Positions 16,587 through 30,999 of a DNA stretch of 34,137 nt are shown piece after piece. Within the stretch, counting starts at the first letter, position 1. Each line of letters starts with the position of its first letter. The translations under genes and the position numbers were made by a program. The notes under the pieces were generated by a model. It was given only the letters and a program-made list of their open reading frames with translations. It ran no database searches and had not been told where the DNA came from. Source of the DNA: Bacteroidales bacterium. Lineage in GTDB: Bacteria > Bacteroidota > Bacteroidia > Bacteroidales > VadinHA17. The stretch is from NCBI GenBank assembly GCA_027451265.1, contig DAIDJT010000003.1, forward strand, positions 1-34,137, in the 5' to 3' direction.

Positions 16587-19500
16587 TCAGACTCTCATCC
16601 CCATAAAGAGGACGTCATCAACCTGATCATTCTTACCCATCCATTCAAAGAAGAACTCCCTGACTTCCCTCTGCTGTCCCTCAGCGTTCAGCGGTGTTAT
16701 ATCATCAATAAGGGTTTTGAGGCGGCTGATTTTCATCTTCTTCCCGCCATGGCCTCCGAATTGGTCACAGTAGCCGTCAGTAAAGAGAAAGACCATATCT
16801 CCCTCCCTGAGGTGGTACTCCTGGTCATCATAAAACTTTTCGGTAACGGATTCACCTCCCACGGATGACCTGTTTCCCCTGACATAGTGCTGCACTCCGT
16901 CAATAACAAGTATCACGGGCCTCATTGCAGATGAGAAGACCAGCTGCCTGGTGGTGAGGTTGAACTCACACACCACGATGTCCATGCCGTCATTTGAGGC
17001 TTCCATCTCCTGGTTCTGGTTGAGTGTTGAGAATATCTGCCTGTCAAGTTCATGAAGTATCTGTGAGGGCCTGGTTATCTTCTTGACGGTAATGATATCC
17101 TGGAGGAGTGCCGTACCGATCATTGACATGAAAGCGCCAGGCACACCATGGCCCGTTGAGTCAGAGCAGACAACAATGAACCGGTCCTTATCAACCCAGT
17201 CAAACCAGTAGAAGTCACCGCTGACAATATCGCGTGGCTGGAAGAAGACGAATGCCTCCCTGAAGACTGTGCCGAGCCGCGCAGTATCAGGCAGGACACT
17301 GCTCTGGATACGCTTGGCATACTTAATGCTCTCGGTGATGTCAAGGTTTTTCTGGGCCAGCTCTTCCTTCTGTTCGTAAACCTCGGCAGTGCGCTTCTGC
17401 AGCTCATTTTCGAGGTATTCGCGCTGTATCCTGTGAGCCCTTTCGCGAAGCCTTACAATAAGATATACCACTCCCGCGATGAGCGCCAGCACAGACAGGA
17501 AAAACCACCACCTGTCAGTCACGGGTTTCTGTATGATAAGGCTGAATGATGCAGTTGTGGCACGGTCCGGATCATCCCTGGTAAGGGCTTCCACACTGAA
17601 CCGGTAATGCCCGTCACGTAGATTGTAGGTGACAGACCTGTCACCGGTCACCTCACTCCACTCCTCGTCAAAGTTGCCAAGCCTGGTGCGGTAGACAACG
17701 TTCAGCGGGTCGCGAAGGAAGATGCCAGCATAATTAACCTTCACACTGTATGATTTCCTGTAGGGAAGATTGTAACTCTCCCTGTATGGATATACGACAT
17801 CGTTGATAACCACTGAAATGATTCCTGCCTGTGGTGCTGCTGCAGAATCTGGTTCCAGTGACGGGTTGTAAACGACTATTCCTTCGGTTGTTCCTACACA
17901 GACCGTTCCGTCCGGGAGGCCGGCAATAGCATTGGGGAGACAATCACCCCTCACCCCGAATTCCGTACTGTAAGCTCTTACCGAGCCCGTTGCCGGATTG
18001 GTGATTGAAAAGCCCTTCTGATGGCCTGTCCAGACCCTTCCGTCAGAGGCAATCAGGGCACTGTAGCAGAAGTTGGTCAGCAACCCGTCAGCCTCGGTGT
18101 AATTAAGAACCGTGTCACCTGCAAAGAGAAACAGCCCGTTGCCATTTGTCCCGGCGCAGATTGTGCGGTCAGGTGCAACCGAGATGCAGCGGAGCTCGTT
18201 GACCCTGCTTCCTTCCATTATCATCCCTTCCGTGCGTACTCCTCCTGTGACATGGATGTAGCACAGCCGGTCACTCTTGGTGGCCACCAGCACCTCACCC
18301 TCACGGTTGACAACAACCTGTGAAATGTAGTTATGAGGCAGCAGGTCAAGCGTCGTATAGACAGCTTTTTGTCTTCCGGTCGCCCTGTCAAGGAGGATGA
18401 CTCCGTCACTGGTGCCGAGCCACAGGTTGTCACTTTCAACAGCCACAGAGTTGATATGGTTCTGACCGGGATTTCCGGAAAGGTAATACTGTCTGAGGCT
18501 CCCGTCTGGCTTCATGAGCCACAGGCCGTCGCTGACAGTGCCTATCCATATGTTTCCTGTATCATCCGTTGCCCATGATGCAATTCCTGAACCCCCGGTT
18601 CTGGCAGTAAGGGAGCGGAACCGCGTAAAGCTGCCGGTAAGCGGGTTAAAATCATATATCCCGCTCCTGGTGCCTGCAACCACCTGGTCTCCTGCCCGGC
18701 CGATGAAAGTGATCTCCTTGTTAGTCTCCGGTCGGTAAAATGCGAAGGCATTGGTGGTGACAGCCGCAAGTCCGTGGCTGAAAAGGCCTATCCAGAGGTT
18801 CCCCTCACGGTCTGTAAAGAGGGTGCGGACGTTATTGTCAGGGAGGCCTGAAGTGACGTCGTATCTCCCGGTGATTGTCATATCACTGAAATCCTGGCTG
18901 AATGAGGTCTTAAATGCCCCGGCATCCATGGTGGCAACGGTCAGCGACCTTCCGGGACCTGCATTGATAGCGGGGATGTTCATGTTCATAAAAAGGGTGT
19001 CACCCACAGCTGTGGCAGTCATTGTGTCACCGCTTCGCCTGATCATCCAGAGACCTTTGTCGCCGGTACCGGCAAACCATGTGTCATCATCCATCCGGAG
19101 CACCGTCTGGATCCATGTGTAGTCCAGTTCCGGGAAGGTGAGCCGGCTCACCGCACTGTCACCGGAAGCAGCGCAAAGGTGCAGGTTATCCTGAGTTGCA
19201 GCCAGGAATGTTCCGTCCCCGGCAAAGGCTATGTCAAAGAGGTTCATCTCACCGGGCATTTTCATCCGGGTGATTTTGTCACCTTCTCCTTTGCCGGCAA
19301 TAAAGATCCCACTGGTTTGTGTAATTATCCATACGTTGCCGTCAGGGCTCCCTGTGATGCGGTTGACCCTGTCAGACTCCACCAGGCTTCTCCTCTCCAT
19401 TTTGCCTCCCGGTTTCCAGGTAAAGAGGGAACCGTCACTCATCCCCACCCACATTGTACCATTTTTATCATTATACAGGGCACTCACATTGCCGCGCGGC

Positions 19501-19745
19501 ATGGTGTCAGGGAATTGCATGTGATGAAATGAGAAACCGTCATAACGGTAGAGACCTGTGTCAACCCCTGTCCAGAGCAACCCGTCACGGTCCTGCGCAA
19601 TGACGCTGAGATAGCTTCCCGGCAGGCCGGTATATTCATCATACGTACGAAAACTGTAAGTCTGTGCAGATGACACACTCGGATGCAGCACTGTTACAAG
19701 GACTAAGCACAATGCTGTCAATGGAAGTCTGAAGCTTCTGGGCAT
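16587..19745 (-). CDS. Periplasmic beta-propeller / Y_Y_Y sensor with cytoplasmic SpoIIE-type PP2C phosphatase
   Basis: 1052 residues. Signal peptide to about residue 27 (LHPSVSSAQ). Two-component-regulator propeller repeats (LWTGVDTGLYRYDGFSF, MWVGMSDGSLF, LWIGLFSHGLAAV, IWIGTVSDGLWL) fill residues 30-640. A Y_Y_Y domain (NVVYRTRLGNFDEEW to HYRFSVEALTRDD) lies near 675-730, a transmembrane helix near 745-765 (FFLSVLALIAGVVYLIVRL), then a coiled coil. The SpoIIE domain runs from 830 to the end, with intact acidic motifs DIVSGDFYWF, DSTGHGVPGAFMSM and FTDGYCDQFGG. The fold is that of hybrid two-component sensors, but the kinase is replaced by a serine/threonine phosphatase, so the output is probably dephosphorylation of a partner such as an anti-sigma antagonist. 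It is the last gene of the adhesin operon. No partner-switch protein is nearby. Confidence 0.92.
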   Translation of the reverse strand: MPRSFRLPLTALCLVLVTVLHPSVSSAQTYSFRTYDEYTGLPGSYLSVIAQDRDGLLWTGVDTGLYRYDGFSFHHMQFPDTMPRGNVSALYNDKNGTMWVGMSDGSLFTWKPGGKMERRSLVESDRVNRITGSPDGNVWIITQTSGIFIAGKGEGDKITRMKMPGEMNLFDIAFAGDGTFLAATQDNLHLCAASGDSAVSRLTFPELDYTWIQTVLRMDDDTWFAGTGDKGLWMIRRSGDTMTATAVGDTLFMNMNIPAINAGPGRSLTVATMDAGAFKTSFSQDFSDMTITGRYDVTSGLPDNNVRTLFTDREGNLWIGLFSHGLAAVTTNAFAFYRPETNKEITFIGRAGDQVVAGTRSGIYDFNPLTGSFTRFRSLTARTGGSGIASWATDDTGNIWIGTVSDGLWLMKPDGSLRQYYLSGNPGQNHINSVAVESDNLWLGTSDGVILLDRATGRQKAVYTTLDLLPHNYISQVVVNREGEVLVATKSDRLCYIHVTGGVRTEGMIMEGSRVNELRCISVAPDRTICAGTNGNGLFLFAGDTVLNYTEADGLLTNFCYSALIASDGRVWTGHQKGFSITNPATGSVRAYSTEFGVRGDCLPNAIAGLPDGTVCVGTTEGIVVYNPSLEPDSAAAPQAGIISVVINDVVYPYRESYNLPYRKSYSVKVNYAGIFLRDPLNVVYRTRLGNFDEEWSEVTGDRSVTYNLRDGHYRFSVEALTRDDPDRATTASFSLIIQKPVTDRWWFFLSVLALIAGVVYLIVRLRERAHRIQREYLENELQKRTAEVYEQKEELAQKNLDITESIKYAKRIQSSVLPDTARLGTVFREAFVFFQPRDIVSGDFYWFDWVDKDRFIVVCSDSTGHGVPGAFMSMIGTALLQDIITVKKITRPSQILHELDRQIFSTLNQNQEMEASNDGMDIVVCEFNLTTRQLVFSSAMRPVILVIDGVQHYVRGNRSSVGGESVTEKFYDDQEYHLREGDMVFLFTDGYCDQFGGHGGKKMKISRLKTLIDDITPLNAEGQQREVREFFFEWMGKNDQVDDVLFMGMRV

Positions 19746-19747
19746 GA

Positions 19748-20737
19748 TTATTTCTTGGGTATTACCTTTATCCGCGGCTTATAAACCGGCACTCCCCCTA
19801 TAGGGGCGCTGAAGAAGGGAAGATTCTGACCGTACTGGTTCTGAACCGATACAACCACATTATTGTTTTTTACCAGTTCTCCCTTCCTCTTGTAAAAGCG
19901 GAAGTCGAGCGATTTTCCTATCTCCCCCTCGTAGATCTCCATTTTCGATGTCTCCCATTCATCTTCGCCTGAGAGCGGGATTATCTGCCCTTTTCTCTCA
20001 ACGGATACCACCATGGAATTCCCGTCATTGTCCCAGTCGAAGTTACTCTGCTGTACCCATATACAGCCGCTGTCAATAAACGGATATATATGTGAGACAA
20101 ATGAAGTGTCATTGTTATTCCACATCCTGAAGGTATATTCATATGTGAATGCGTTGGCGCCGTCAATGGGCACGTTTGTATCTGGTCTCCTCGAGATTGC
20201 GTACCTGTAAAGATTGCCGTCATCGCCTGATACTCCGTCACAGATTATCTTGAAGATGTTGCTCAGGAACTTCGGGTAATATTCACCGTCAGCCGGGTTG
20301 AACGGCCCGAATGTAAACCAGCGCTCATCAAGCTTGTTATCCATTCCGAATGTGCGGGTTGCCAGCAGCGTTCCGCTCTTGTAATTGCCTCTAGGGTCTA
20401 TTCCGTTTGCCTCCGGATTGGTATAGCAGCCCTTACCCCCATAGATTGAGTATACCATACGGGTGTTCCAGAAGTTGTTTAGTTCATCAGTCTTGCCCCC
20501 GATGTCAGGGTCATACACCCTGATGTAAAACGGATCTTTGTAATCCTTCGGCAGGGCAAAGAAGAACGTCTGCGAAAAATCATCATCTCCCCATGAAGTG
20601 ATACCTCCTTCCCTGCCAAAGGTAATGAGGAACGGTATGTTCTCATCCGGGCCCGGTACTTCCTGGGCTCTCAACCCCGAAGGGGCTGCAGTCAGAACAA
20701 GAATAAAAAGCGGCAATATTAAGCGGGTAACTCTCAT
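19748..20737 (-). CDS. Exported protein of unknown function in the T9SS surface operon
   Basis: 329 residues with a signal peptide (MRVTRLILPLFILVLTAAPSGLRAQ). I recognise no named family. The mature protein is rich in aromatic residues, Asp, Asn and Gly and looks beta-rich. It has ITSWGDDDFSQTFFF near the start, FYIRVYDPDIGGKTDELNNFWNT, and a C-terminal part ending in ISVQ-like strands and VYKPRIKVIPKK. Two Cys (CYTNPEANG and IICDGVSGDD) may form a disulfide. No membrane segment or sorting domain is seen. It lies 22 bases after the PD40/PKD gene and two bases before the propeller-phosphatase gene, so it belongs to the same transcript and probably acts at the cell surface or in the periplasm with them. 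Sugar binding or a structural role is possible but not shown. Confidence 0.8.
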   Translation of the reverse strand: MRVTRLILPLFILVLTAAPSGLRAQEVPGPDENIPFLITFGREGGITSWGDDDFSQTFFFALPKDYKDPFYIRVYDPDIGGKTDELNNFWNTRMVYSIYGGKGCYTNPEANGIDPRGNYKSGTLLATRTFGMDNKLDERWFTFGPFNPADGEYYPKFLSNIFKIICDGVSGDDGNLYRYAISRRPDTNVPIDGANAFTYEYTFRMWNNNDTSFVSHIYPFIDSGCIWVQQSNFDWDNDGNSMVVSVERKGQIIPLSGEDEWETSKMEIYEGEIGKSLDFRFYKRKGELVKNNNVVVSVQNQYGQNLPFFSAPIGGVPVYKPRIKVIPKK

Positions 20738-20759
20738 CTTCCTCCTTCAATAATCATGT

Positions 20760-22199
20760 TTAATCCCCAGATACTTCAATGTCCTTGCAGACACAGACCT
20801 CACGCACAACTCCCCCGGCGTCAGGTACTGAGCTGACTATCAACTGAATATTATATCTTCCCGGAAGGGCAAATACCTTTGATACTTCCAGTCCGGTTGC
20901 AACGGTTTCATCTCCGAAATTCCAGTAGTAACGGGCTATCTTCATCCCGGGCAGGTAGGTGGCACCCGCATTAAGGATCAACGTTTCTCCTGCCTTAATA
21001 GTATCAGGGCAGGTGATCACCGGCTGTTCGATATCCGTAATCTCAAGTTCATAGGAAGCCTGTCTCTTTTCAATGCCTTTGGTAACAAGGTTTACAATGT
21101 CAAGACTGATATCATAGACTCCGGGCCCGCTGAAGCAGTGTTCGGCAGTTATCCCTGTTGCCCTGGTACCGTCGCCAAAGTCCCACTCCCATCTGAAGCC
21201 TGTCTTGAGAGTATCCTGTTTGAGGGCATTTTCCTCAATGAATTCATAACAGTAACTGTTTTTCTGAATGCCGTCACACGCTGACCATCGTATGATGGTT
21301 GATATGAAACTGTAAATGTTATCATTGAAATTCCGGCGGTTTGAGGTGAAATAACCCTGCATGCCTCCCTGTGCAGCATAAAATGCGAAGTCGTCAGCCT
21401 CCGAATTGACCGGCTCATCCATATCTACCGGTTTCGTCCATGAGCCGTATGCAAGGCTTGAGTACCATATATCAAGTCCTCCCTTGCCTCCCGGCCTGTC
21501 TGAGGCAAAGTACAGTCTTCCGGAGCTGTGAAGGAAAGGATGTATCTCGGCTGCGCTGCTGTTGACCTCCGGACCCAGGTTCTGCGGTTTGGTCCAGTGG
21601 CCGTCAATATACTCGCACATGTAAATGTCATATCTTCCCTGGCCTCCGGACATGTCAGAGCAGAAGAAGAGATACCTGCCATCAGCTGAAACATAAGGGA
21701 AGGAGAGGTTGTAATCGGGGTTGTTGAATTCAAAGGGAGTGATATCAGTCCACTGTGAGCCTGAGCGCTTCGCGGTGAAGATACCAAGCCTGTTAGGCTG
21801 ATTTTTGCCAAGCTTTCGACCTTCGCTGTTATTGCGGGTAAACCAGAGCGTGTTGCCGTCAGTTGTCACAGAGGCCGGTCCGATGTTTGCATCCCTGACA
21901 AGGTTTGGCGCAAACCTCACAGGCGAAACAGGCTTACCGTCTCCGTTGAACGGGGCATAATAAAGCTCATAAAGCCTGACGCCTTCAAGGTTCTTTTTGG
22001 TCAGGAAGGGATTGGTTTTCCTGTTCGAGCAGAACAGGATACCGTCACTCATAATTACAGGGGCCATATCATCCGATGAGGAAGAGATGCCCGGGATATT
22101 CGTTACCTCAAAGGTTCCCTTCGCCTGCCCGTTAAGGAGAGCAAAATGGCCCGACAATAAGACCAGCGCGACTGCGATATGTTTCAGAATGCTCCTCAT
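20760..22199 (-). CDS. PD40 beta-propeller and PKD-domain exported protein (T9SS-associated, PorE-like without OmpA domain)
   Basis: 479 residues from ATG 22199 (MRSILKHIAVALVLLSG). The track start at 22229 would overlap the porP gene by 26 bases and places ten residues ahead of the signal peptide, so the inner start is preferred. After the signal, PD40/WD40-like repeats fill residues 35-300 (YLFFCSDMSGGQGRYDIYM, RLYFASDRPGGKGGLDIWY, GYFTSNRRNFNDNIYSF). Two PKD-like domains follow (WEWDFGDGTRATG to VYDISLDIVN; YYWNFGDETVATG to RYNIQLIV). The propeller half resembles the T9SS component PorE and other OmpA-family proteins, but the C-terminal OmpA peptidoglycan-binding domain is missing. No lipobox is seen. 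It sits four bases after porP, which supports a role with the PorP/SprF partner. Confidence 0.85.
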   Translation of the reverse strand: MRSILKHIAVALVLLSGHFALLNGQAKGTFEVTNIPGISSSSDDMAPVIMSDGILFCSNRKTNPFLTKKNLEGVRLYELYYAPFNGDGKPVSPVRFAPNLVRDANIGPASVTTDGNTLWFTRNNSEGRKLGKNQPNRLGIFTAKRSGSQWTDITPFEFNNPDYNLSFPYVSADGRYLFFCSDMSGGQGRYDIYMCEYIDGHWTKPQNLGPEVNSSAAEIHPFLHSSGRLYFASDRPGGKGGLDIWYSSLAYGSWTKPVDMDEPVNSEADDFAFYAAQGGMQGYFTSNRRNFNDNIYSFISTIIRWSACDGIQKNSYCYEFIEENALKQDTLKTGFRWEWDFGDGTRATGITAEHCFSGPGVYDISLDIVNLVTKGIEKRQASYELEITDIEQPVITCPDTIKAGETLILNAGATYLPGMKIARYYWNFGDETVATGLEVSKVFALPGRYNIQLIVSSVPDAGGVVREVCVCKDIEVSGD

Positions 22200-22203
22200 C
22201 TTG

Positions 22204-23133
22204 TCAGAAATACCTTGGCGATGTTGCACTTACGGCAAAGGCAAATTCGTATCTCAGTGACACTTCATGCGTCCCTGATGTATATTTGTTCAGATGCCCC
22301 AGCTGATAGTCAAACGAATACCCCACCTTGAGCTGAGGGGTGACCTGCAAATCAAGCAAAGCCACAGCTGCCTGCTCGGCAATCCTGTATGATCCTCCGA
22401 CCCAGAGCATATCGGCAAAAATGAAGTTGGCATTGAGGTCAACCTCCAGTGGCTCACGCATTGCGTACCGCACCAGCACCGAGGGCTTTACCTTGAAGGC
22501 ATCAGTAAACCTTATCAGCGTGCCGGCGGTCAGATATGTCCTGAACATGGAATAGTCAGGACTGACCCTGAACTGGTCCGTCTCGTCCCTCTTGTATGTC
22601 AGTAGTGAGGGGACGGACAGTCCGGCAAAATACCTGTCAGTGTAGTAGTAGAACCCGACTCCCATGTTGGGCAGAGTGTATTTCATGTTTCCTGTAAGCA
22701 ATGGATCAGCCGGGTTGCCGTCAGGGAATTGCAGGTTGTTGTAGTTGGTGTTGCTGAGGTCAATCCCTCCCTTCAGTCCCATGGAAAGCCTGCCCTGTCC
22801 AATCCTGACGCTGTAGGCGTAAAAGGCATATATGCCCACATCCTTCGTCACCCCGTAGGTGAGGTAGTCAGCCATCAGGCCGAGGGAGACCTTTTCCTTA
22901 TTATTAACCGGGCTATGCAGTGAAAGAGTCTGGAACTGGGGAGCGCCGTTTATGCGGGCCCACTGCTTGCGGTATGAGAGGTTGGCGCTCAGTGCTTCGC
23001 GTGTACCTGCATACGCAGGATTGATCACCAATCCGTTTGTAAGGTACTGGCTGGTAATGGGAACCTGCTGAGCATCTACAGACAGTGTCAGCACAAAGGC
23101 GAGGAGAACTGATATGTACAGGCTTCCTTTCAT
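22204..23133 (-). CDS. PorP/SprF-family type IX secretion outer-membrane protein
   Basis: 309 residues. Signal peptide MKGSLYISVLLAFVLTLSVDAQ is followed by the family's hallmark PITSQYLTNGLVINPAYAGTREALSANLSYRKQW. Alternating amphipathic beta strands and repeated family stretches (SLGLMADYLTYGVTKDVGIYAFYAY, LSMGLKGGIDLSNTNYNNLQ, WVGGSYRIAEQAAVALL) follow, ending in an aromatic residue (SATSPRYF) as in outer-membrane barrels. PorP/SprF proteins are needed for secretion or surface attachment of specific T9SS cargo with type B C-terminal domains; SprF with SprB in Flavobacterium is the known example. It starts one base after the stop of the large cargo gene, which fits a dedicated cargo-PorP pair. 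Confidence 0.93.
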   Translation of the reverse strand: MKGSLYISVLLAFVLTLSVDAQQVPITSQYLTNGLVINPAYAGTREALSANLSYRKQWARINGAPQFQTLSLHSPVNNKEKVSLGLMADYLTYGVTKDVGIYAFYAYSVRIGQGRLSMGLKGGIDLSNTNYNNLQFPDGNPADPLLTGNMKYTLPNMGVGFYYYTDRYFAGLSVPSLLTYKRDETDQFRVSPDYSMFRTYLTAGTLIRFTDAFKVKPSVLVRYAMREPLEVDLNANFIFADMLWVGGSYRIAEQAAVALLDLQVTPQLKVGYSFDYQLGHLNKYTSGTHEVSLRYEFAFAVSATSPRYF

Positions 23134-23134
23134 C

Positions 23135-26100
23135 TTATCTCCTGAGAATGATAAATCCGCTTATATGAGCCGAATATTCAGGAACGTCAAGATCCTGGGC
23201 CCCGTTGATGGTGAGAAGGTAATAATATGTTCCGTCAGGTACTTCCCTGCCGTTCAGATCGAGGCCGTTCCAGGCACCCAGCGGATCATTGCTGCGGTAA
23301 TCAGCAGCCCTGTATACTACAGCGCCTGCGGTGTTAATTATTACAAGTTCATTGCGGGTGAATTCCAGACCCTCCACGTTGAAGAAGTCATTTATGCCAT
23401 CATTGTTTGGCGTCAAACCCTGGGGTATGGTCAGATCAGGCACCGTCAGGGTCACTGACACCTCAGGTGCTATGCATGCTCCGTTTGAGACTGCGAAAAT
23501 AAAAGTATTGTCTCCGAACTCCAGCTTCCTCACCTCGGTAGTCTTTTCAAGGGGAGTTGCCAGGACCGGCTCTGCGTTGCCACTGCCGAAATCATAGCTC
23601 CATACAGATGTTCCTGCACCGTCAAAACTGCCCGCAAGAACGGCAGCAAACTGGTAGGGAAGCAATATCCTGCTGGCTCCGGCACTGATATTCAGAGGCA
23701 TGATGTCAACCGTCACGGTTACCGGTGCCGAAACGGATACACAGCAGTTATTTTCACCGGAAAAAACACTTCTCCTGAACTGTGTGGTTTCCTCAAGCAT
23801 CGGGGGCTGATATGTTGCGGCATTGTTCGAACCGGATGCTGTTACCCAGCCGGGAGACTGGCTATCCATTCTTTCCCATAGGTACCGGAATCTGCCGTCA
23901 CCGCCGGAAAGTGTACCGCCGTTAAGGGCTGCAGCCGTATTGGTGTTGCAGATGGTCTGGTTTGCCGTTATGACATTGCCGGTTATCTGTGGCAGCACTG
24001 TAATGGTGAAAACCGAACTCTCCGTGCAGGCACCTGAAGTGACCGTTCTCCGGAACCATGTGGTTGCCGTAAGGTTGCCCGGCTGGTATGAATTGCCTGT
24101 TTCAGACAGAGGTGTAAAGGTTGTGTTATCTGTTGATGAGGCCCAGGCATAGGTAAACGCACCCAGTCCGCCGCCGGGGGTACCCGAGAGGAGGGCCGGT
24201 GCTGTTCCGGTACAGATTGTATCATGTCCCTGCGCCGGAAGGCTTATTGCAAACCCTGTTATGCGCGGATCAACAGTGATATGAACATTATTGCTGGTGC
24301 TGGTGCAGGCTGATGATGTCACCACGCGCCTGTACCATATGCCGCTTGTAAGAGTTGCACCGGGAAGATCTTCAGACGAAGCGCCGGTGATATTGCTGAA
24401 TGACAACCCGTTGGTGCTGCTCATCCACTGGTATGTATAGGTACCTGCCCCTGCCCCGTCACCAGGAACGGTACCGTCAATGGTGGCCGGAGAAGTTCCC
24501 TCACAAATTGTCTGGTCAGCTGCAACCACATTGTTGGTGATTGAAGGGTGACATACAAGAGTGACGGTGTTGCTCACTGACTGGCAGGTATTCAACGGAC
24601 CACTGTAGACTGTGCGCCTGTAGTATGTTGTTGAAGGTGCGTCATTCTGGGGATCGTAGCCAATCCCGTTATTGGTACCGGCAGCAGCTGACCAGTTGGT
24701 GTTGTCAATGCTGCTCATCCACTGGTAGGTGAATGATGGTGCAGCTCCGCCTGCGGGAGTGCTGCCTGAAAGGTTGCTGAAGAGGGTGCCCTGGCAGATT
24801 GTCTGGTCTGCAGTTACGCTGTTGCCGGATATTGCCGGAAGTATTGTCACTGTTACCGGTATACTTATACTGGTGCAGGCTCCGGAGCTGACTATTCTTT
24901 GATAGTGCATTGTTGAAATCAGGGCCTGGGGGTTATAAACCGCGGCAGTACCGGCGCCGGCAGCATTGACCCATGTGACGTTGTCAGCGCTCTCCTCCCA
25001 CCGGTATGAATACAGGCCATTTCCGCCTGACGGACCTGAGTTCAGCGGGTAAAGCTCCTCCGGATCCATATTGTAACACAGGGTGGTGTCAGAGCCTATG
25101 ATATTTCCGGTTATGCGCGGGTGGACTATTATCCTTACCGGGAGGCTCCGGTCAATGATGCCTGCGCCGTCACTGACCACCCTTCTGAACCAGACGGTAG
25201 CTGATTCAGTTCCAGTTGGCGTATATTCAATGGAAGTGCCGGTCAGGTCTGACCAGGTATTATTGTCATAGCTTCTCTGCCACTGGTAGGTGTAGGTGCC
25301 GCTGCCTCCTGCCGGACGTGTGCCGGTGAGTTTCGGGGGAATCATCCCCTCGCAGATGGAGTCAAGCTGGCTCAGATTGTAGGCTATGTAAATCTCATTA
25401 AAGAGAAATCCGTTCAGCGGCAGGTTGAGATTGCTGCGGACCAGTCCGGGTGAGCCGTCGCGGTTTGGATCGCCACCGCTGTGGATGCCGCCTTGGCCGC
25501 CGGCAACGGTTGCCGTTCCGGCAAAGGGTCCTGTTGTCCAGATCAGGCCGCCGCCACCGCCGCCACCCGCACCATTCTGGTTTACGTTATTGCCTCCCTT
25601 GCCACCATCGGCAGAGAGTACCGGGGTTGAGAGGAAATGTCTTGTGCTTATTATCACTGAGCCGCCTGCACCGCCACCGCCTGCACCGGCATTTGCTGCT
25701 GAATTATTGATTGCGGCGGCGCCACTTGCTGTGATTATCCTGCCGTTACCCACAATGGTGTCAGCATGGATGATCACAATACCCCCGCCGTTTGCACCGG
25801 CAGAGGTCGTAGGCGTGGTCAGGTATACAGAAGCGCCGCCGCCGCTGCCCATATAAACACCTGAATTCAATGTCGAAAAGCCTGCCACGGAAAACCCGCC
25901 ACGGCCACCGGGCATTAGCCCTCCGCACAGATCAGGAGCCATCTCCTGGTCACCCTGGCTGCCGGCACCGTAGTTCGCTCCGCCGCCACCGCCTGAATAA
26001 CGCCCGTTGCCGCCACCGCCACCGGTCATGTTGGCTCCCTTGCCCTTCATAAAACCTGGATTGAGCGGCAGACCAGTCGCAGTTTCAAAGGCAATTCCCT

Positions 26101-26746
26101 CACCCTTGTACCCGGCTGCATATGACCCGATGCTATATGATTCCCAACTGATTGTGTCATCGGATCTCTGGCATGAACCGCTGCCCTGCGAGACAATCCC
26201 TCCCCTGAATCCCGCGCCAGAGACATTAATGTTCTCATTAAGTGTCAGCACACCCTTGACCATGAAAACCAGCACACCACCGGTGACCGAGGCAGAATCC
26301 CATTGCTGACATGAGAGCTGGGTATTTACAACCGCATCACGGTACGTCCTCACCTTCACAAGCTGTACCTTCGCCGCGGGATCATACGCGTTTAGTAAAA
26401 CACGGGTGAAATCAATCCGTCGGGTACCGGTATTGACTGTTGACACGATGATTATTTCATACTTTCCCGGAGTGCCAATTGTATTCTGGTAGTTGCCCTC
26501 AAGAGCGGCGCCGGCATTGATCCCCACGCCATTCATCTGCATGACCATCACGGTATCATTTGCAGCAAAGCCGGTGGCGTCATCAACTATAACGTAACCT
26601 GCGCCAACTGCATTGACCCTGGCGTACCTGTTGACCTGGCCGGTGAGGAGGGGTGTCTGCCCTGATACATAAATACAACCGAATGCTATCATCTGAATAA
26701 CAATCAGAAGATAAATCCTGGCTCTGTGACTGGTAGCAAAGGGCAT
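23135..26746 (-). CDS. Large T9SS cargo: Gly-rich adhesin with Ig-like repeats and type B (CHU_C) sorting domain
   Basis: 1203 residues. An N-terminal signal (IYLLIVIQMIAFGCIYVSG) is followed by a beta-rich region, then a Gly-rich region near residues 230-430 (TGGGGGNGRYSGGGGGANYG, NGAGGGGGGGLIW). Six Ig/PKD-like repeats of about 93 residues each follow. Their shared pattern is ITxNxxxADQTIC near the start, TYQWMSS in the middle and WYRRVVxSxAC near the end, each carrying a Cys pair. One more beta domain leads into the C-terminal sorting domain IPQGLTPNNDGINDFFNVEG, ending in GTYYYLLTING and GFIILRR, the gliding-motility-associated (CHU_C, type B) signal. Family knowledge: such proteins are secreted by T9SS and held at the surface, often as adhesins. 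It is the first gene of the surface operon; no TAnnTTTG box lies just upstream. Confidence 0.93.
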   Translation of the reverse strand: MPFATSHRARIYLLIVIQMIAFGCIYVSGQTPLLTGQVNRYARVNAVGAGYVIVDDATGFAANDTVMVMQMNGVGINAGAALEGNYQNTIGTPGKYEIIIVSTVNTGTRRIDFTRVLLNAYDPAAKVQLVKVRTYRDAVVNTQLSCQQWDSASVTGGVLVFMVKGVLTLNENINVSGAGFRGGIVSQGSGSCQRSDDTISWESYSIGSYAAGYKGEGIAFETATGLPLNPGFMKGKGANMTGGGGGNGRYSGGGGGANYGAGSQGDQEMAPDLCGGLMPGGRGGFSVAGFSTLNSGVYMGSGGGASVYLTTPTTSAGANGGGIVIIHADTIVGNGRIITASGAAAINNSAANAGAGGGGAGGSVIISTRHFLSTPVLSADGGKGGNNVNQNGAGGGGGGGLIWTTGPFAGTATVAGGQGGIHSGGDPNRDGSPGLVRSNLNLPLNGFLFNEIYIAYNLSQLDSICEGMIPPKLTGTRPAGGSGTYTYQWQRSYDNNTWSDLTGTSIEYTPTGTESATVWFRRVVSDGAGIIDRSLPVRIIVHPRITGNIIGSDTTLCYNMDPEELYPLNSGPSGGNGLYSYRWEESADNVTWVNAAGAGTAAVYNPQALISTMHYQRIVSSGACTSISIPVTVTILPAISGNSVTADQTICQGTLFSNLSGSTPAGGAAPSFTYQWMSSIDNTNWSAAAGTNNGIGYDPQNDAPSTTYYRRTVYSGPLNTCQSVSNTVTLVCHPSITNNVVAADQTICEGTSPATIDGTVPGDGAGAGTYTYQWMSSTNGLSFSNITGASSEDLPGATLTSGIWYRRVVTSSACTSTSNNVHITVDPRITGFAISLPAQGHDTICTGTAPALLSGTPGGGLGAFTYAWASSTDNTTFTPLSETGNSYQPGNLTATTWFRRTVTSGACTESSVFTITVLPQITGNVITANQTICNTNTAAALNGGTLSGGDGRFRYLWERMDSQSPGWVTASGSNNAATYQPPMLEETTQFRRSVFSGENNCCVSVSAPVTVTVDIMPLNISAGASRILLPYQFAAVLAGSFDGAGTSVWSYDFGSGNAEPVLATPLEKTTEVRKLEFGDNTFIFAVSNGACIAPEVSVTLTVPDLTIPQGLTPNNDGINDFFNVEGLEFTRNELVIINTAGAVVYRAADYRSNDPLGAWNGLDLNGREVPDGTYYYLLTINGAQDLDVPEYSAHISGFIILRR
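23640..25390. repeat. Six Ig-like protein repeats encoded in the adhesin gene
   Basis: Units of about 280 bases encode ITGN/ITNN...QTIC...YQW...FRR...SGAC modules. DNA identity between units is low but short words recur (for example ctcatccactggtatgt and ctcatccactggtaggt in two units), so the repeats are old or diversified. Confidence 0.7.
25490..26045. repeat. Gly-codon-rich low-complexity stretch in the adhesin gene
   Basis: The plus strand is dominated by gccgccacc and ccgccgcc words, giving runs of Gly on the coding (minus) strand. Local GC is higher than in neighbouring sequence and it creates false Pro/Arg-rich ORFs on the plus strand. Confidence 0.75.
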
Positions 26747-26828: not shown

Positions 26829-29800
26829 CTAAACAGTGTAGAGAAGCGGAAACTCCACGGTAAATACCGTCCCTTTGTCCTGCTCCGTTGTAAACCAGAT
26901 TTTGCCTCCTGCTCCTTCTACATACCGCTTGACTATTGACAGACCGAGCCCCATTCCTGAAGATTTGGTAGTGAAATTGGGTGTGAACATTTTGGGAATA
27001 AGTTCACCCGGAATGCCTGTCCCGTTGTCTATAAATTTTACCCTGACGTGGGTATTATCAGCCGAAAGGACTATCCTGATCACGCCGTTTTTCCCGGAAG
27101 GGACAGACTGAATGGCATTCTTGAGTAGGTTGGAGAAGATACTGTTCAGATGTTCCCTGTCAGCCATCACCACTGCCTTATTGATTTTTCCGCTCTCAAG
27201 CGTAATGGTTGTGTTTTCGGCTTGGCCGAACATGGCAACAGTAGTATTGAGCTGGGCAAGTATATCAACCTCGGCCGGTTCTGCTACCGGCAGCTTGGCG
27301 AAGGAGGAGAAGGCGGACGCAATGTTTGACAGGTTCTCTATGTATTCAATCTGGTTGTCCGTAAAGTTCCTGATTCTCCTGTCGAAATCTGGCACCTTGT
27401 CGCTCCATGACTTTAACAATTGCTGCACATTCAGCTTCATCGGGGTGAGAGGGTTCTTGATCTCATGGGCAATCTGCCTGGCCATCTCGCGCCAGGCCAT
27501 CTCACGTTCTGTTTGGGCAAGCTTGCTTGCGCTCTCCTCCAGCTCATCAGTCATGCGGTTGTACTGCCGCACCAGCTCACCTACCTCATCACGGCTGTTA
27601 TAACTGATATGCTCGTTTTTCTTACCGTAGGCTACCGAGGCCATCGCCTGCTGAAGCATATTGAGCGGGCTGGTTATTCTCTCGCTGAGGAACACCGCCA
27701 CCCACATCATTATCAGCAGGAACAGCAGAGCAAAGTTGACAAGGGTAACAAGCAGGTTTGTCGTCTCCCGGGTCAGCAGGTTCTGCATTGTAAAATATGG
27801 TATGTTGAGATATGCAAGGAGCTTGTTGTCTTCATTGTAGAATGGAAGGTAGGCAGAAAGGAAATTCATTGTGCCTATGCTCTCAACGCCAATGTACTCT
27901 TCCCTGCCACCTGATGTAAGCATGCCATAGGCCACAGGATCAATCATACTTCCCTCAAGCTTGCGCGAAAAAACTTCGGGTCTCGATGTGGCTATCAGCC
28001 TGCCTGACGGCGAATAGAGATTGATGTCAGTAAAAAATACGTTTGAGAATTTGACCAGGAGATGGTTCAGTGTGGGATAATCAGGCGCCTGCCACCCTTT
28101 CTCCAGCGTCTCCTCCGAGGCAAGCTTGTGCTCCAGCTCTATTGAAAGTGAAGTGGCCTTCTCGCGTATGATCCTCGTATGATTGTTGCGGAATTGCCTT
28201 GTGCTGAGCATAAGTGCACCTGTTATCACTATAATGAAGACCACAGTAAGTACGGCTGCAAAGGAAAGCTGCAGACGCCTGCGGAAGGTATCAGTCTTCA
28301 AAATCTCCGCGGGCTTAAGTGTGAAGACAACCAGTAAGGTGAACACATAAATAAGTGTGACAATGAAGAGATAGGCAAATGTGATGATCCTGTCAAGCAG
28401 CTTAACTTTGGCAGTGGAAATTGCCAGGGTCATGTCACCAAGAGTATAATACAAATGCCGGTAATCACGGGTATCTTCAAACCTGAACTCTTCCCTCTCT
28501 GACTGACCTTCGGCAATTGATGTTTCATAGGGGTATTCCCCCGACCTCAGAACAAGGGTGCCCCGGCTGTACTTGGCATAAGAAATATCCTTAAGCATCG
28601 GGAAACGCTGATGGCCCCCGTCAAGAAGCAGCTCAGGGTATCCCGCCAGGAAGGTTTCAATATGACTGACGAGCTCAATAAAGAGCCCGTTGGTCACCCC
28701 GGGCGAGAGCTCATAAACGAGCTTTGACATGTACCACGCCCTGCCGGTCCGGTTACGCATGAAATAAAAACCAGTCTGTGTAATGGTGTCACCCTCATTC
28801 CTGATCCGGTTGTCAAACCAGTCAAAACAGCTTTTCGCTTCCGTACCCGTTGATCCCAGGCTGAGAGGAGAGTCATTGCGGCAGATCACGATGTTGATAT
28901 CGTAGTTCTCCCAGTAACCGTAGAAATACCCGTCTTCAAGATACCTGTAAACACCATTTATATCACCGGGAGTGATGATTTCCTTTTTGACCAGCCCCTC
29001 CAGGACGGTATCACCCTCCAGCGCCGGCCACATGTCAATAATCATCCCTTCTGCCACCATATCATTGTCGCTGGCCAGGGAGACGGCCATGACTTTCATG
29101 TTCCTCTCCTCCTTGAGGACCGAGTACCTGATGATCAGGGCTGTGGCAAGCAAGGCGGTGACTACTGAAAAAATAAGGGTTAGCGAAACCTCGGAATAGG
29201 CTTTTCTCTGCCAGATCAGTATGGCAGCAACCATTACAATGACCCACAGGATGCTCCATCCGCTGCAGTCGCTTCCCAGGAAACAGGCCAGCGGAAGCAG
29301 TATCAGTGAGCCGCCGGTAATGGCAATGGTTTCCCGCAGAGACCAGCCCTGTATCATCCGGAATGCACGCATGAAGAGTATCACCGGTACCGTCAGAAGC
29401 AGCATCACTGAGACAATCCCGGCAAGGCTCATGAAAGTCATGTCAAGAATCCTGAATGCTTCGAAGCTGATTGCCGAATTCACCACCAGGTCCCTGAAAT
29501 ATGCCTCCCCCAGGAGGAAGAGAACAAATCCCGATGCCAGCATCAGCAACGGGACCAGCGGCCTGAGCAGGCCCTTTCCGGTCCACGGGAGGTTGAACCT
29601 CCCGCTCCTGAAGGAGAACCTGATACCTGACAGGATCAGGATGCCGAGAAGCAACACATGGCCAACCGTCGGCATCAGCCGGCCTGCTGACCAGTTAAAT
29701 GGTGAAAACAGTTCCATGGAGGTCACCGAATGAGGCAGCCCCGTCAGGAGAAGAACAATGTAAACAGCCAGCAGGGCGAGAAAGGCCACGGCAATGCCAG

Positions 29801-30530
29801 ATGGCGGTTTCGCTTTCCGGTCAACCATGAGAGCGATCAGAACCACACACCTGACAACCAGGAAGAACACAATCATCCAGAGCAAAACAGGAATGGCGAT
29901 GAATATTGTGTTGGGCTTTTTATCAGGGAAAACCAGGCCGAAATGATACTCCTTCTCCGATCCAAACACCCTGAAACCAGAGGCAGAAGGATCAAAGGTG
30001 ATCCTGGTCTCATCCGGCAGATGAAATGTCTCAGGATAACCCGTCTTCAGAATATTGTTGACTATCGGATATTGCCTGTAAACCTTTATCAGTGCCAGCA
30101 TCTCATACCCCGGAAACCCCAGGTGCACCGGGATGAACCATCCGTTGCTGTAGAATACCGGCTTGTGCGTGTCAAAATGTTCCTCATAGATTACCGGGAA
30201 GGCAATGCTGTTGTCAGACCAGTAAGCAATATGTCCCTCCTGATAAACCAGCAGGGTTATTCCTTTCCTGTGTGCAGTGCTGCCCAGAGAACTGCGGAAC
30301 AAGGCTGCAGGATCACCGGTATCCGTGATCTCCTGCTCTGCCATGCGGAGAAGATTCCCGGCTTCATTCTCCAGCGATATAAGCCTGGCATCAACACGGG
30401 CCGTGCGGAACCGCCACTCAAGATCACTGAAATAAACCATGTCGGCAACTGCTGCCAGGGTAAAGGCAACCAGCAGGGCAACTCCTGCAGTCCTGATATT
30501 CTTCAGTCTCTCAGCCATAAGACTATTCAT
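26829..30530 (-). CDS. Large membrane sensor histidine kinase, NtrY-like
   Basis: 1233 residues from ATG 30530, which overlaps the rlmH stop by eight bases; ATG 30518 (MAERLKN), just past that stop, is an equal candidate, while the track start at 30551 is less likely. The N-terminal half has one helix, a sensor loop of about 170 residues, then about eight transmembrane helices (near 210-480). A second extracytoplasmic region, two helices near 730-800, a third loop and a last helix follow. HAMP is near 950-990 (ERITSPLNMLQQAMASVAYG), HisKA has the phospho-acceptor IAHEIKNPLTPMKLN near 1020, and HATPase_c has NLLKNAIQSVP, DNGTGIPG and GMGLGLSIVKRY. The HEIKNPLTPMKLN form is typical of NtrY-type kinases. 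No response regulator is in the window. It lies 82 bases before the adhesin gene on the same strand. Confidence 0.92.
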   Translation of the reverse strand: MNSLMAERLKNIRTAGVALLVAFTLAAVADMVYFSDLEWRFRTARVDARLISLENEAGNLLRMAEQEITDTGDPAALFRSSLGSTAHRKGITLLVYQEGHIAYWSDNSIAFPVIYEEHFDTHKPVFYSNGWFIPVHLGFPGYEMLALIKVYRQYPIVNNILKTGYPETFHLPDETRITFDPSASGFRVFGSEKEYHFGLVFPDKKPNTIFIAIPVLLWMIVFFLVVRCVVLIALMVDRKAKPPSGIAVAFLALLAVYIVLLLTGLPHSVTSMELFSPFNWSAGRLMPTVGHVLLLGILILSGIRFSFRSGRFNLPWTGKGLLRPLVPLLMLASGFVLFLLGEAYFRDLVVNSAISFEAFRILDMTFMSLAGIVSVMLLLTVPVILFMRAFRMIQGWSLRETIAITGGSLILLPLACFLGSDCSGWSILWVIVMVAAILIWQRKAYSEVSLTLIFSVVTALLATALIIRYSVLKEERNMKVMAVSLASDNDMVAEGMIIDMWPALEGDTVLEGLVKKEIITPGDINGVYRYLEDGYFYGYWENYDINIVICRNDSPLSLGSTGTEAKSCFDWFDNRIRNEGDTITQTGFYFMRNRTGRAWYMSKLVYELSPGVTNGLFIELVSHIETFLAGYPELLLDGGHQRFPMLKDISYAKYSRGTLVLRSGEYPYETSIAEGQSEREEFRFEDTRDYRHLYYTLGDMTLAISTAKVKLLDRIITFAYLFIVTLIYVFTLLVVFTLKPAEILKTDTFRRRLQLSFAAVLTVVFIIVITGALMLSTRQFRNNHTRIIREKATSLSIELEHKLASEETLEKGWQAPDYPTLNHLLVKFSNVFFTDINLYSPSGRLIATSRPEVFSRKLEGSMIDPVAYGMLTSGGREEYIGVESIGTMNFLSAYLPFYNEDNKLLAYLNIPYFTMQNLLTRETTNLLVTLVNFALLFLLIMMWVAVFLSERITSPLNMLQQAMASVAYGKKNEHISYNSRDEVGELVRQYNRMTDELEESASKLAQTEREMAWREMARQIAHEIKNPLTPMKLNVQQLLKSWSDKVPDFDRRIRNFTDNQIEYIENLSNIASAFSSFAKLPVAEPAEVDILAQLNTTVAMFGQAENTTITLESGKINKAVVMADREHLNSIFSNLLKNAIQSVPSGKNGVIRIVLSADNTHVRVKFIDNGTGIPGELIPKMFTPNFTTKSSGMGLGLSIVKRYVEGAGGKIWFTTEQDKGTVFTVEFPLLYTV

Positions 30531-30999
30531 GATGATAAGGATCCCCGGCATTGACCGAAAGCACCCTGTATAGTTGTTCCGCGAACAATAATCGTACCAC
30601 CTGGTGCGAGAAGGTGAGCCTCGAGAGCGAAAGCATATGGTCTGCCCTGGCTGTCACCGATGGGTCAAAGCCGTAAGGGCCTCCCACAACAAACACTATT
30701 CTTTTGGACTGTAGCATCATCAGTTTGCGCATCCATTCAGCCATCTCAAGAGTTGAATACAATTTCCCCCGTTCATCAAGCAGAACCACATGATCATCAA
30801 CCCGGAACTGTGCAAGCATCTTCTCCGCCTCCCTGGCTTTCACCCATTCTGCAGGACGGCTGCCCGGATTTTTGACATCAGGCAGGGTGATGATCTCCAG
30901 GCGACAATATTTTGAGATTCTCTTCTCATATTCCGCCACGCCGTCACTTATCCATGACTTATCAGTCTTTCCCGCCAGCAGCAGCGCTATCTTCATCAC
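30523..30999 (-). CDS. rlmH: 23S rRNA (pseudouridine(1915)-N(3))-methyltransferase RlmH
   Basis: 158 residues from MMKIALLLAGKT (the second ATG, one codon later, is equally likely). SPOUT-class methyltransferase features are clear: KIALLLAGKT at the start, VVLLDERGKLYSTLEMAEWM in the middle, and the SAM-binding knot IVFVVGGPYGFDPSV. The conserved end SLSRLTFSHQVVRLLFAEQLYRVLSVNAGDPYHHE follows. The protein methylates pseudouridine 1915 in helix 69 of 23S rRNA on assembled 70S ribosomes. Its stop overlaps the possible start of the histidine kinase gene, so they are probably co-transcribed. It is divergent from the DUF4783-nadC operon. Confidence 0.97.
   Translation of the reverse strand: MMKIALLLAGKTDKSWISDGVAEYEKRISKYCRLEIITLPDVKNPGSRPAEWVKAREAEKMLAQFRVDDHVVLLDERGKLYSTLEMAEWMRKLMMLQSKRIVFVVGGPYGFDPSVTARADHMLSLSRLTFSHQVVRLLFAEQLYRVLSVNAGDPYHHE

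Follow-up and report, generated by a model that had tools for sequence, protein, structure and literature searches.

Five consecutive genes on the minus strand, at positions 16587–26746 of a 34,137-nucleotide stretch of Bacteroidales DNA, form a real, conserved module whose last gene encodes a phosphatase dedicated to it, a conclusion that is well supported. The stretch (hereafter the window) is contig C3 of a metagenome-assembled genome that is about 80% complete. The genes encode, in transcript order, a cargo protein of the type IX secretion system (T9SS), a PorP/SprF protein, a protein with a PD40 propeller and PKD domains, an exported protein whose family we name EXP, and a transmembrane PP2C phosphatase. 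All five open reading frames (ORFs) and their domains had been proposed in a sequence-only reading, and domain searches agree with it. The intergenic gaps are 1, 4, 22 and 2 bases, as that reading gave them, when the third gene starts at the ATG at 22199; an alternative upstream GTG at 22229 would overlap porP. We consider, with a probability of about 0.55, that the module builds a static cargo–PorP–PorE complex, to which EXP is added together with an inner-membrane phosphatase of its own that would report the state of the complex by partner switching.

The linkage of these genes was followed at EXP loci, sampled as the surroundings of 60 matches, 80 named loci from GTDB species genomes and one further family; the two retrieval sets partly overlap, and the 141 loci are not 141 independent genomes. 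The relatives are uncultured Bacteroidales by name. The phosphatase gene lies directly downstream of EXP at 141 of 141 loci, including an apparent exception (L180) where it is split by a frame break near a contig end. All five genes are consecutive, on one strand and in this order at 53 loci (genome set G), with median gaps of 1, 3, 28 and 7 bases, and most loci outside the 53 are cut by contig ends. The unbroken EXP–phosphatase adjacency and the 53 five-gene loci thus indicate more than chance linkage.

The module is usually found beside der and era, and nine of the 53 modules lack a Der-locus neighbour, some of them on short contigs. A Der-locus copy and a further module on a different contig occur together in at least four genomes (L078/L079, L071/L094, L092/L093, and L075/L076/L077), showing duplication of the block as a whole. 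At other sites, the four non-cargo genes are recognisable and the cargo is quite different; at L076, an extra cargo–porP pair is inserted. In a tree that also included nine phosphatases linked to TPR-caspase genes and five further propeller phosphatases, those of the module grouped into a single clade (56/56, support 1.0). Distances in the gene trees of the five proteins correlate with one another (r 0.73–0.94), partly through common ancestry. In the converse test, strong phosphatase orthologues in 45 genomes adjoin EXP, except in G005 and G023, where contigs end, and in G024. The expected co-occurrence is therefore conserved, with the five-gene order at 53 loci that include copies at other sites, and apart from the degraded locus of G024, the phosphatase was not found beside unrelated operons without a link to porP and cargo.

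The first gene (23135–26746, minus strand) encodes a T9SS type B cargo of 1203 amino acids with a signal peptide, a glycine-rich AgmC-like N domain, Ig_7/CHU_C-type repeats, and a C-terminal CHU_C sorting domain. CHU_C (2.5e-17) exceeds its cut-off and Ig_7 matches at 7e-9, while AgmC_N (9e-48) and the type B C-terminal domain (4.7e-8) both fall under the NCBIfam cut-offs. The repeats differ strongly between module copies, and the type B CHU_C sorting domain is retained at other sites. Directly downstream, after the 1-base gap, lies the cognate gene of a 309-amino-acid outer-membrane shuttle or anchor of the PorP/SprF family (22204–23133, minus strand; PF11751, 6.4e-69; TIGR03519, 7.9e-70). 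The arrangement recalls SprB–SprF, likewise a type B cargo with its cognate PorP/SprF, but a PorE-type gene is present here and PorP is without the C-terminal twin cysteine through which SprF is coupled to the GldK track of gliding (PMC12635249). The PorP of the window has no cysteine at all, and the twin is absent from all 53 complete modules; we therefore rejected a SprB-type gliding adhesin, and the lack of the twin fits a static complex. Five PorP matches occur in the genome of the window. Those flanks of the other matches that were read (with GldK-L-M-N, a PorU/PorV-like cluster, and a sigma-factor-like neighbour) contain no similar phosphatase, so the module represents a specific type of PorP operon and not a general feature of PorP genes.

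The third gene (20760–22199, minus strand) encodes an exported protein of 479 amino acids with PD40 and PKD_4 matches, in which two PKD domains stand behind the propeller. The NCBIfam PorE model matches over the propeller (residues 14–300, 5.8e-44), scoring 150 bits where the full-length cut-off is 600. An OmpA domain is absent from the window protein and is kept at the C-terminus in seven of 138 homologues (Pfam-confirmed in two), and none of the 53 modules has a lipobox in this protein. Judged by its propeller, the protein is a PorE-family relative, which makes the base of the module a putative cargo–PorP–PorE complex of the known kind and not merely cargo plus PorP. Static complexes of a type B cargo with a PorP-like and a PorE-like protein, anchored to the cell wall, are known or proposed in Porphyromonas gingivalis and Flavobacterium johnsoniae (PMC9143113, PMC12618676). 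The gene sets PG1035–PorP–PorE and Fjoh_3952–3951–3950 of these species share with the window a type B cargo, a PorP-like gene directly downstream of it, and a PorE-type propeller. Compared with these complexes, however, the third protein here bears PKD domains but neither a lipobox nor, in most cases, an OmpA domain for binding peptidoglycan, and the operon is extended by the genes for EXP and the transmembrane phosphatase.

EXP (19748–20737, minus strand; 329 amino acids) represents an exported all-beta family without relatives in Pfam, NCBIfam, or PDB sequences. It was found in 91 of 147 relatives searched, usually as one copy, and its alignment contains conserved WGDD, NFDWDxDG, NNNVV, and PIGG motifs. 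The predicted model (pLDDT 71) is beta-rich, and a fold search of the PDB returned no close fold, with TM-scores mostly of 0.13–0.25 to beta-rich folds. Some large proteins of distant Bacteroidota begin with an EXP-like domain and carry many PKD repeats (15 in L185). The neighbours of such proteins (L185, L186, L187, L188, and L189) include FecR/LysM proteins as well as Cache-HAMP cyclases or histidine kinases; proteins joining a response regulator to SpoIIE occur in the L185 and L187 clusters, and a STAS protein in that of L185. These matches are remote and the clusters few. That the family is accompanied by transmembrane signalling proteins with various kinds of output supports a sensory role for EXP.

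The last gene (16587–19745, minus strand) encodes a protein of 1052 amino acids with Reg_prop, Y_Y_Y, SpoIIE, and SiaA matches. A signal peptide is followed by two propellers and a Y_Y_Y sandwich (residues ∼31–738), a single further transmembrane segment (∼745–766), a helical linker, and the PP2C domain (∼820–1052), and the full-chain model has a pLDDT of 84. The membrane segment, the SpoIIE match, and intact catalytic residues (Asp844, 862, 922, 990, and 1043, invariant across 40 sequences) bear out the proposal of a membrane-spanning PP2C phosphatase whose periplasmic sensor is large; the single large propeller first envisaged for the periplasmic half becomes two propellers plus the Y_Y_Y sandwich.

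The best fold for the periplasmic part is the sensor of BT4663 (4a2m; E 2.5e-40, TMt 0.74). This two-propeller and Y_Y_Y fold is shared with the Bacteroides hybrid two-component system (HTCS) sensors BT4663 and BT3049, but unlike in HTCS, the output here is a PP2C domain, the chain has no histidine kinase, receiver, or helix-turn-helix, and the neighbours are T9SS cargo genes. PorZ also combines two propellers and a beta sandwich in a T9SS context; it is a secreted surface component, in contrast to the inner-membrane phosphatase found here, and its match was weaker (TMt 0.30) and generic, so that identity was rejected.

The PP2C domain has the fold of SiaA (6k4e; TMt 0.87–0.89, 29% identity). 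By sequence, the nearest solved phosphatase is again SiaA (PDB 6k4e, 1.2e-31), followed by an RssB-type response regulator (6e-6), and no RsbU match was found among solved phosphatases. The NCBIfam SiaA model matches at 7.4e-49, and its score of 167 bits, where the full-length cut-off is 700, indicates that the domain matches and the whole equivalog does not. As in SiaA of Pseudomonas aeruginosa, a PP2C domain of this type is anchored in the membrane and carries an extracytoplasmic sensor. Relative to SiaABCD, however, the sensor consists of two propellers plus Y_Y_Y, siaB, siaC, and siaD lie outside the module, and GGDEF proteins are nearly absent.

SiaA dephosphorylates Thr68 of SiaC, the site phosphorylated by SiaB (PMC7647112). 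Because the phosphatase domain is of SiaA type, partner switching by a SiaC-family protein is the likely route of the module phosphatase. Of 60 genomes searched, 46 have SiaC genes, with three to twenty copies each, and 46 have SiaB-like genes. One SiaC of the window's genome can be aligned with its Pseudomonas counterpart across the NTSS motif, in which the acceptor Thr is conserved, and one relative (L247) has a propeller-SpoIIE phosphatase gene followed directly by SiaC. In a set of 58 order-level genomes, one from each family, SiaC occurs in 27 and EXP in nine, and those nine all belong to the 27 (one-sided p 4e-4, with ancestry ignored).

Other arrangements of these gene families were also observed. 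On contig C17 of the window's genome (L224:2241–9593), a SiaC gene directly precedes a SpoIIE gene, which is followed by two similar ORFs of ∼800 amino acids that look TIR-like by eye. A SiaB-like/SiaC pair adjoins a conserved gene of ∼1025 amino acids across the family (L218, L220, L221, L222, and L250). A second conserved pair (L225:529–6160; L233–L240), with conserved neighbours, consists of a TPR-caspase (Peptidase_C14) protein followed by a propeller/Y_Y_Y/SiaA-type phosphatase, and the nine phosphatases of this pair form a separate clade. The SpoIIE paralogue of the window's genome at L225 had been a candidate for a PorE link on account of its TPR start, and was rejected as such when a family search identified the TPR-caspase protein.

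From these components, a path across the envelope can be proposed. After export through the T9SS, the cargo would be retained at the outer membrane by its partner PorP, the known mechanism for type B cargo, and the PorE-type propeller/PKD protein would sit under PorP in the periplasm, like PorE in wall-anchored complexes. EXP may link the two-propeller sensor to the periplasmic face of the complex or to the state of its loading. Altered occupancy, engagement, or assembly would switch the SiaA-type PP2C domain, which would dephosphorylate a SiaC-family protein on Ser/Thr, opposing a SiaB-type kinase, and SiaC would then switch partner. Inward reporting of the state of a surface complex, which the sequence-only reading had also suggested, is the most economical reading of the data, but one that we infer, and the full chain has about even odds. 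In nearly all these genomes, the output is not cyclic di-GMP (c-di-GMP) made by a GGDEF protein.

Several observations weigh against this proposal. None of siaB, siaC, and siaD lies inside the module, the SiaB-like and SiaC genes being elsewhere in the genome, and there are several SpoIIE and SiaC genes per genome, so the pairing of phosphatase and SiaC is ambiguous. No GGDEF protein was found in the window's genome (completeness about 80%) or in 24 of the 25 relatives; the output is therefore not of SiaD type, and the one described in Pseudomonas cannot be transferred. An RsbW-type kinase/ATPase gene is present in the window's genome, and reading of ORFs points to STAS-like genes there or in relatives. 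The co-occurrence count of EXP and SiaC is confounded by ancestry, and the material includes metagenome assemblies. Finally, in G024 (L243:9431–11302), a truncated phosphatase gene persists beside der and era in a degraded locus from which the other four genes are gone.

Control might instead run from the inside out, with the phosphatase regulating the complex, the propellers binding a soluble ligand such as a glycan, and the operon serving to co-produce cargo and regulator. The periplasmic fold, that of the heparin/heparan-sulphate sensor BT4663, would suit such a role, as would a phosphatase that stays constant while the cargo varies much between copies. Glycan sensors of the BT4663 kind usually have polysaccharide-utilisation genes as neighbours, however, and no such genes are present here. 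Moreover, this account gives no reason for the invariable placement of the PorE-like and EXP genes after porP and ahead of the phosphatase gene, and we regard it as unlikely, though a serious contender.

A second alternative keeps the same sensing and changes the circuit: the PP2C domain would act on a STAS anti-anti-sigma factor, against an RsbW-type kinase, and thereby alter transcription. This rival stays alive because of the RsbW-type ATPase gene; the STAS-like genes recognised among the ORFs and the distant relative in which an EXP domain clusters with a response regulator–SpoIIE protein and a STAS protein also speak for it. The PP2C domain is nonetheless nearest to SiaA in sequence (1.2e-31 vs 6e-6) and fold (TM 0.87–0.89) and has no RsbU match, which makes a STAS circuit rather improbable.

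The gene upstream of the module bears on the remaining explanation. A long NtrY-like sensor histidine kinase gene (26829–30551, minus strand; HAMP, HisKA, and HATPase_c) lies 82 bases upstream of the cargo gene, and no response regulator was recognised in the window. By synteny, it is a conserved neighbour at the Der locus only and has no counterpart at module copies elsewhere; it was therefore rejected as a member and probably lies outside the module. Scans for promoters and terminators gave results near shuffled expectation and were uninformative. Since the module stands beside der and era in most genomes, position alone could reflect inheritance, but the notion that the phosphatase is a vertically inherited neighbour without a functional link is largely refuted, and very improbable, given whole modules at other sites in the same order, the dedicated phosphatase clade, and the failure of the upstream kinase, a true positional neighbour, to be carried along.

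The open-access literature searched contained no description of such a module, nothing on SpoIIE with PorP, gliding, or Reg_prop, and nothing on point for SiaC or DUF1987 in Bacteroidetes. How Bacteroidota sense the activity of their own T9SS surface proteins from inside the cell is largely an open question; the regulator that is known, PorXY-SigP, acts on expression of the secretion machine and not at the level of single cargo complexes. That a T9SS anchoring complex has here been turned into a receptor, with a chain of PorP, PorE-like protein, and EXP relaying the display or engagement of an outer-membrane adhesin to a two-propeller inner-membrane PP2C phosphatase, and this in turn acting on SiaB/SiaC towards an output other than c-di-GMP, is a tentative proposal to which we give slightly less than an even chance. 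If true, this line from a T9SS cargo across the envelope to a signalling phosphatase would be the first of its kind in the literature searched. The fixed operon of cargo, anchor, new periplasmic family, and dedicated phosphatase makes the sensing question testable gene by gene, and the module provides a cellular setting for SiaB/SiaC genes, which these bacteria have in abundance without a GGDEF output.

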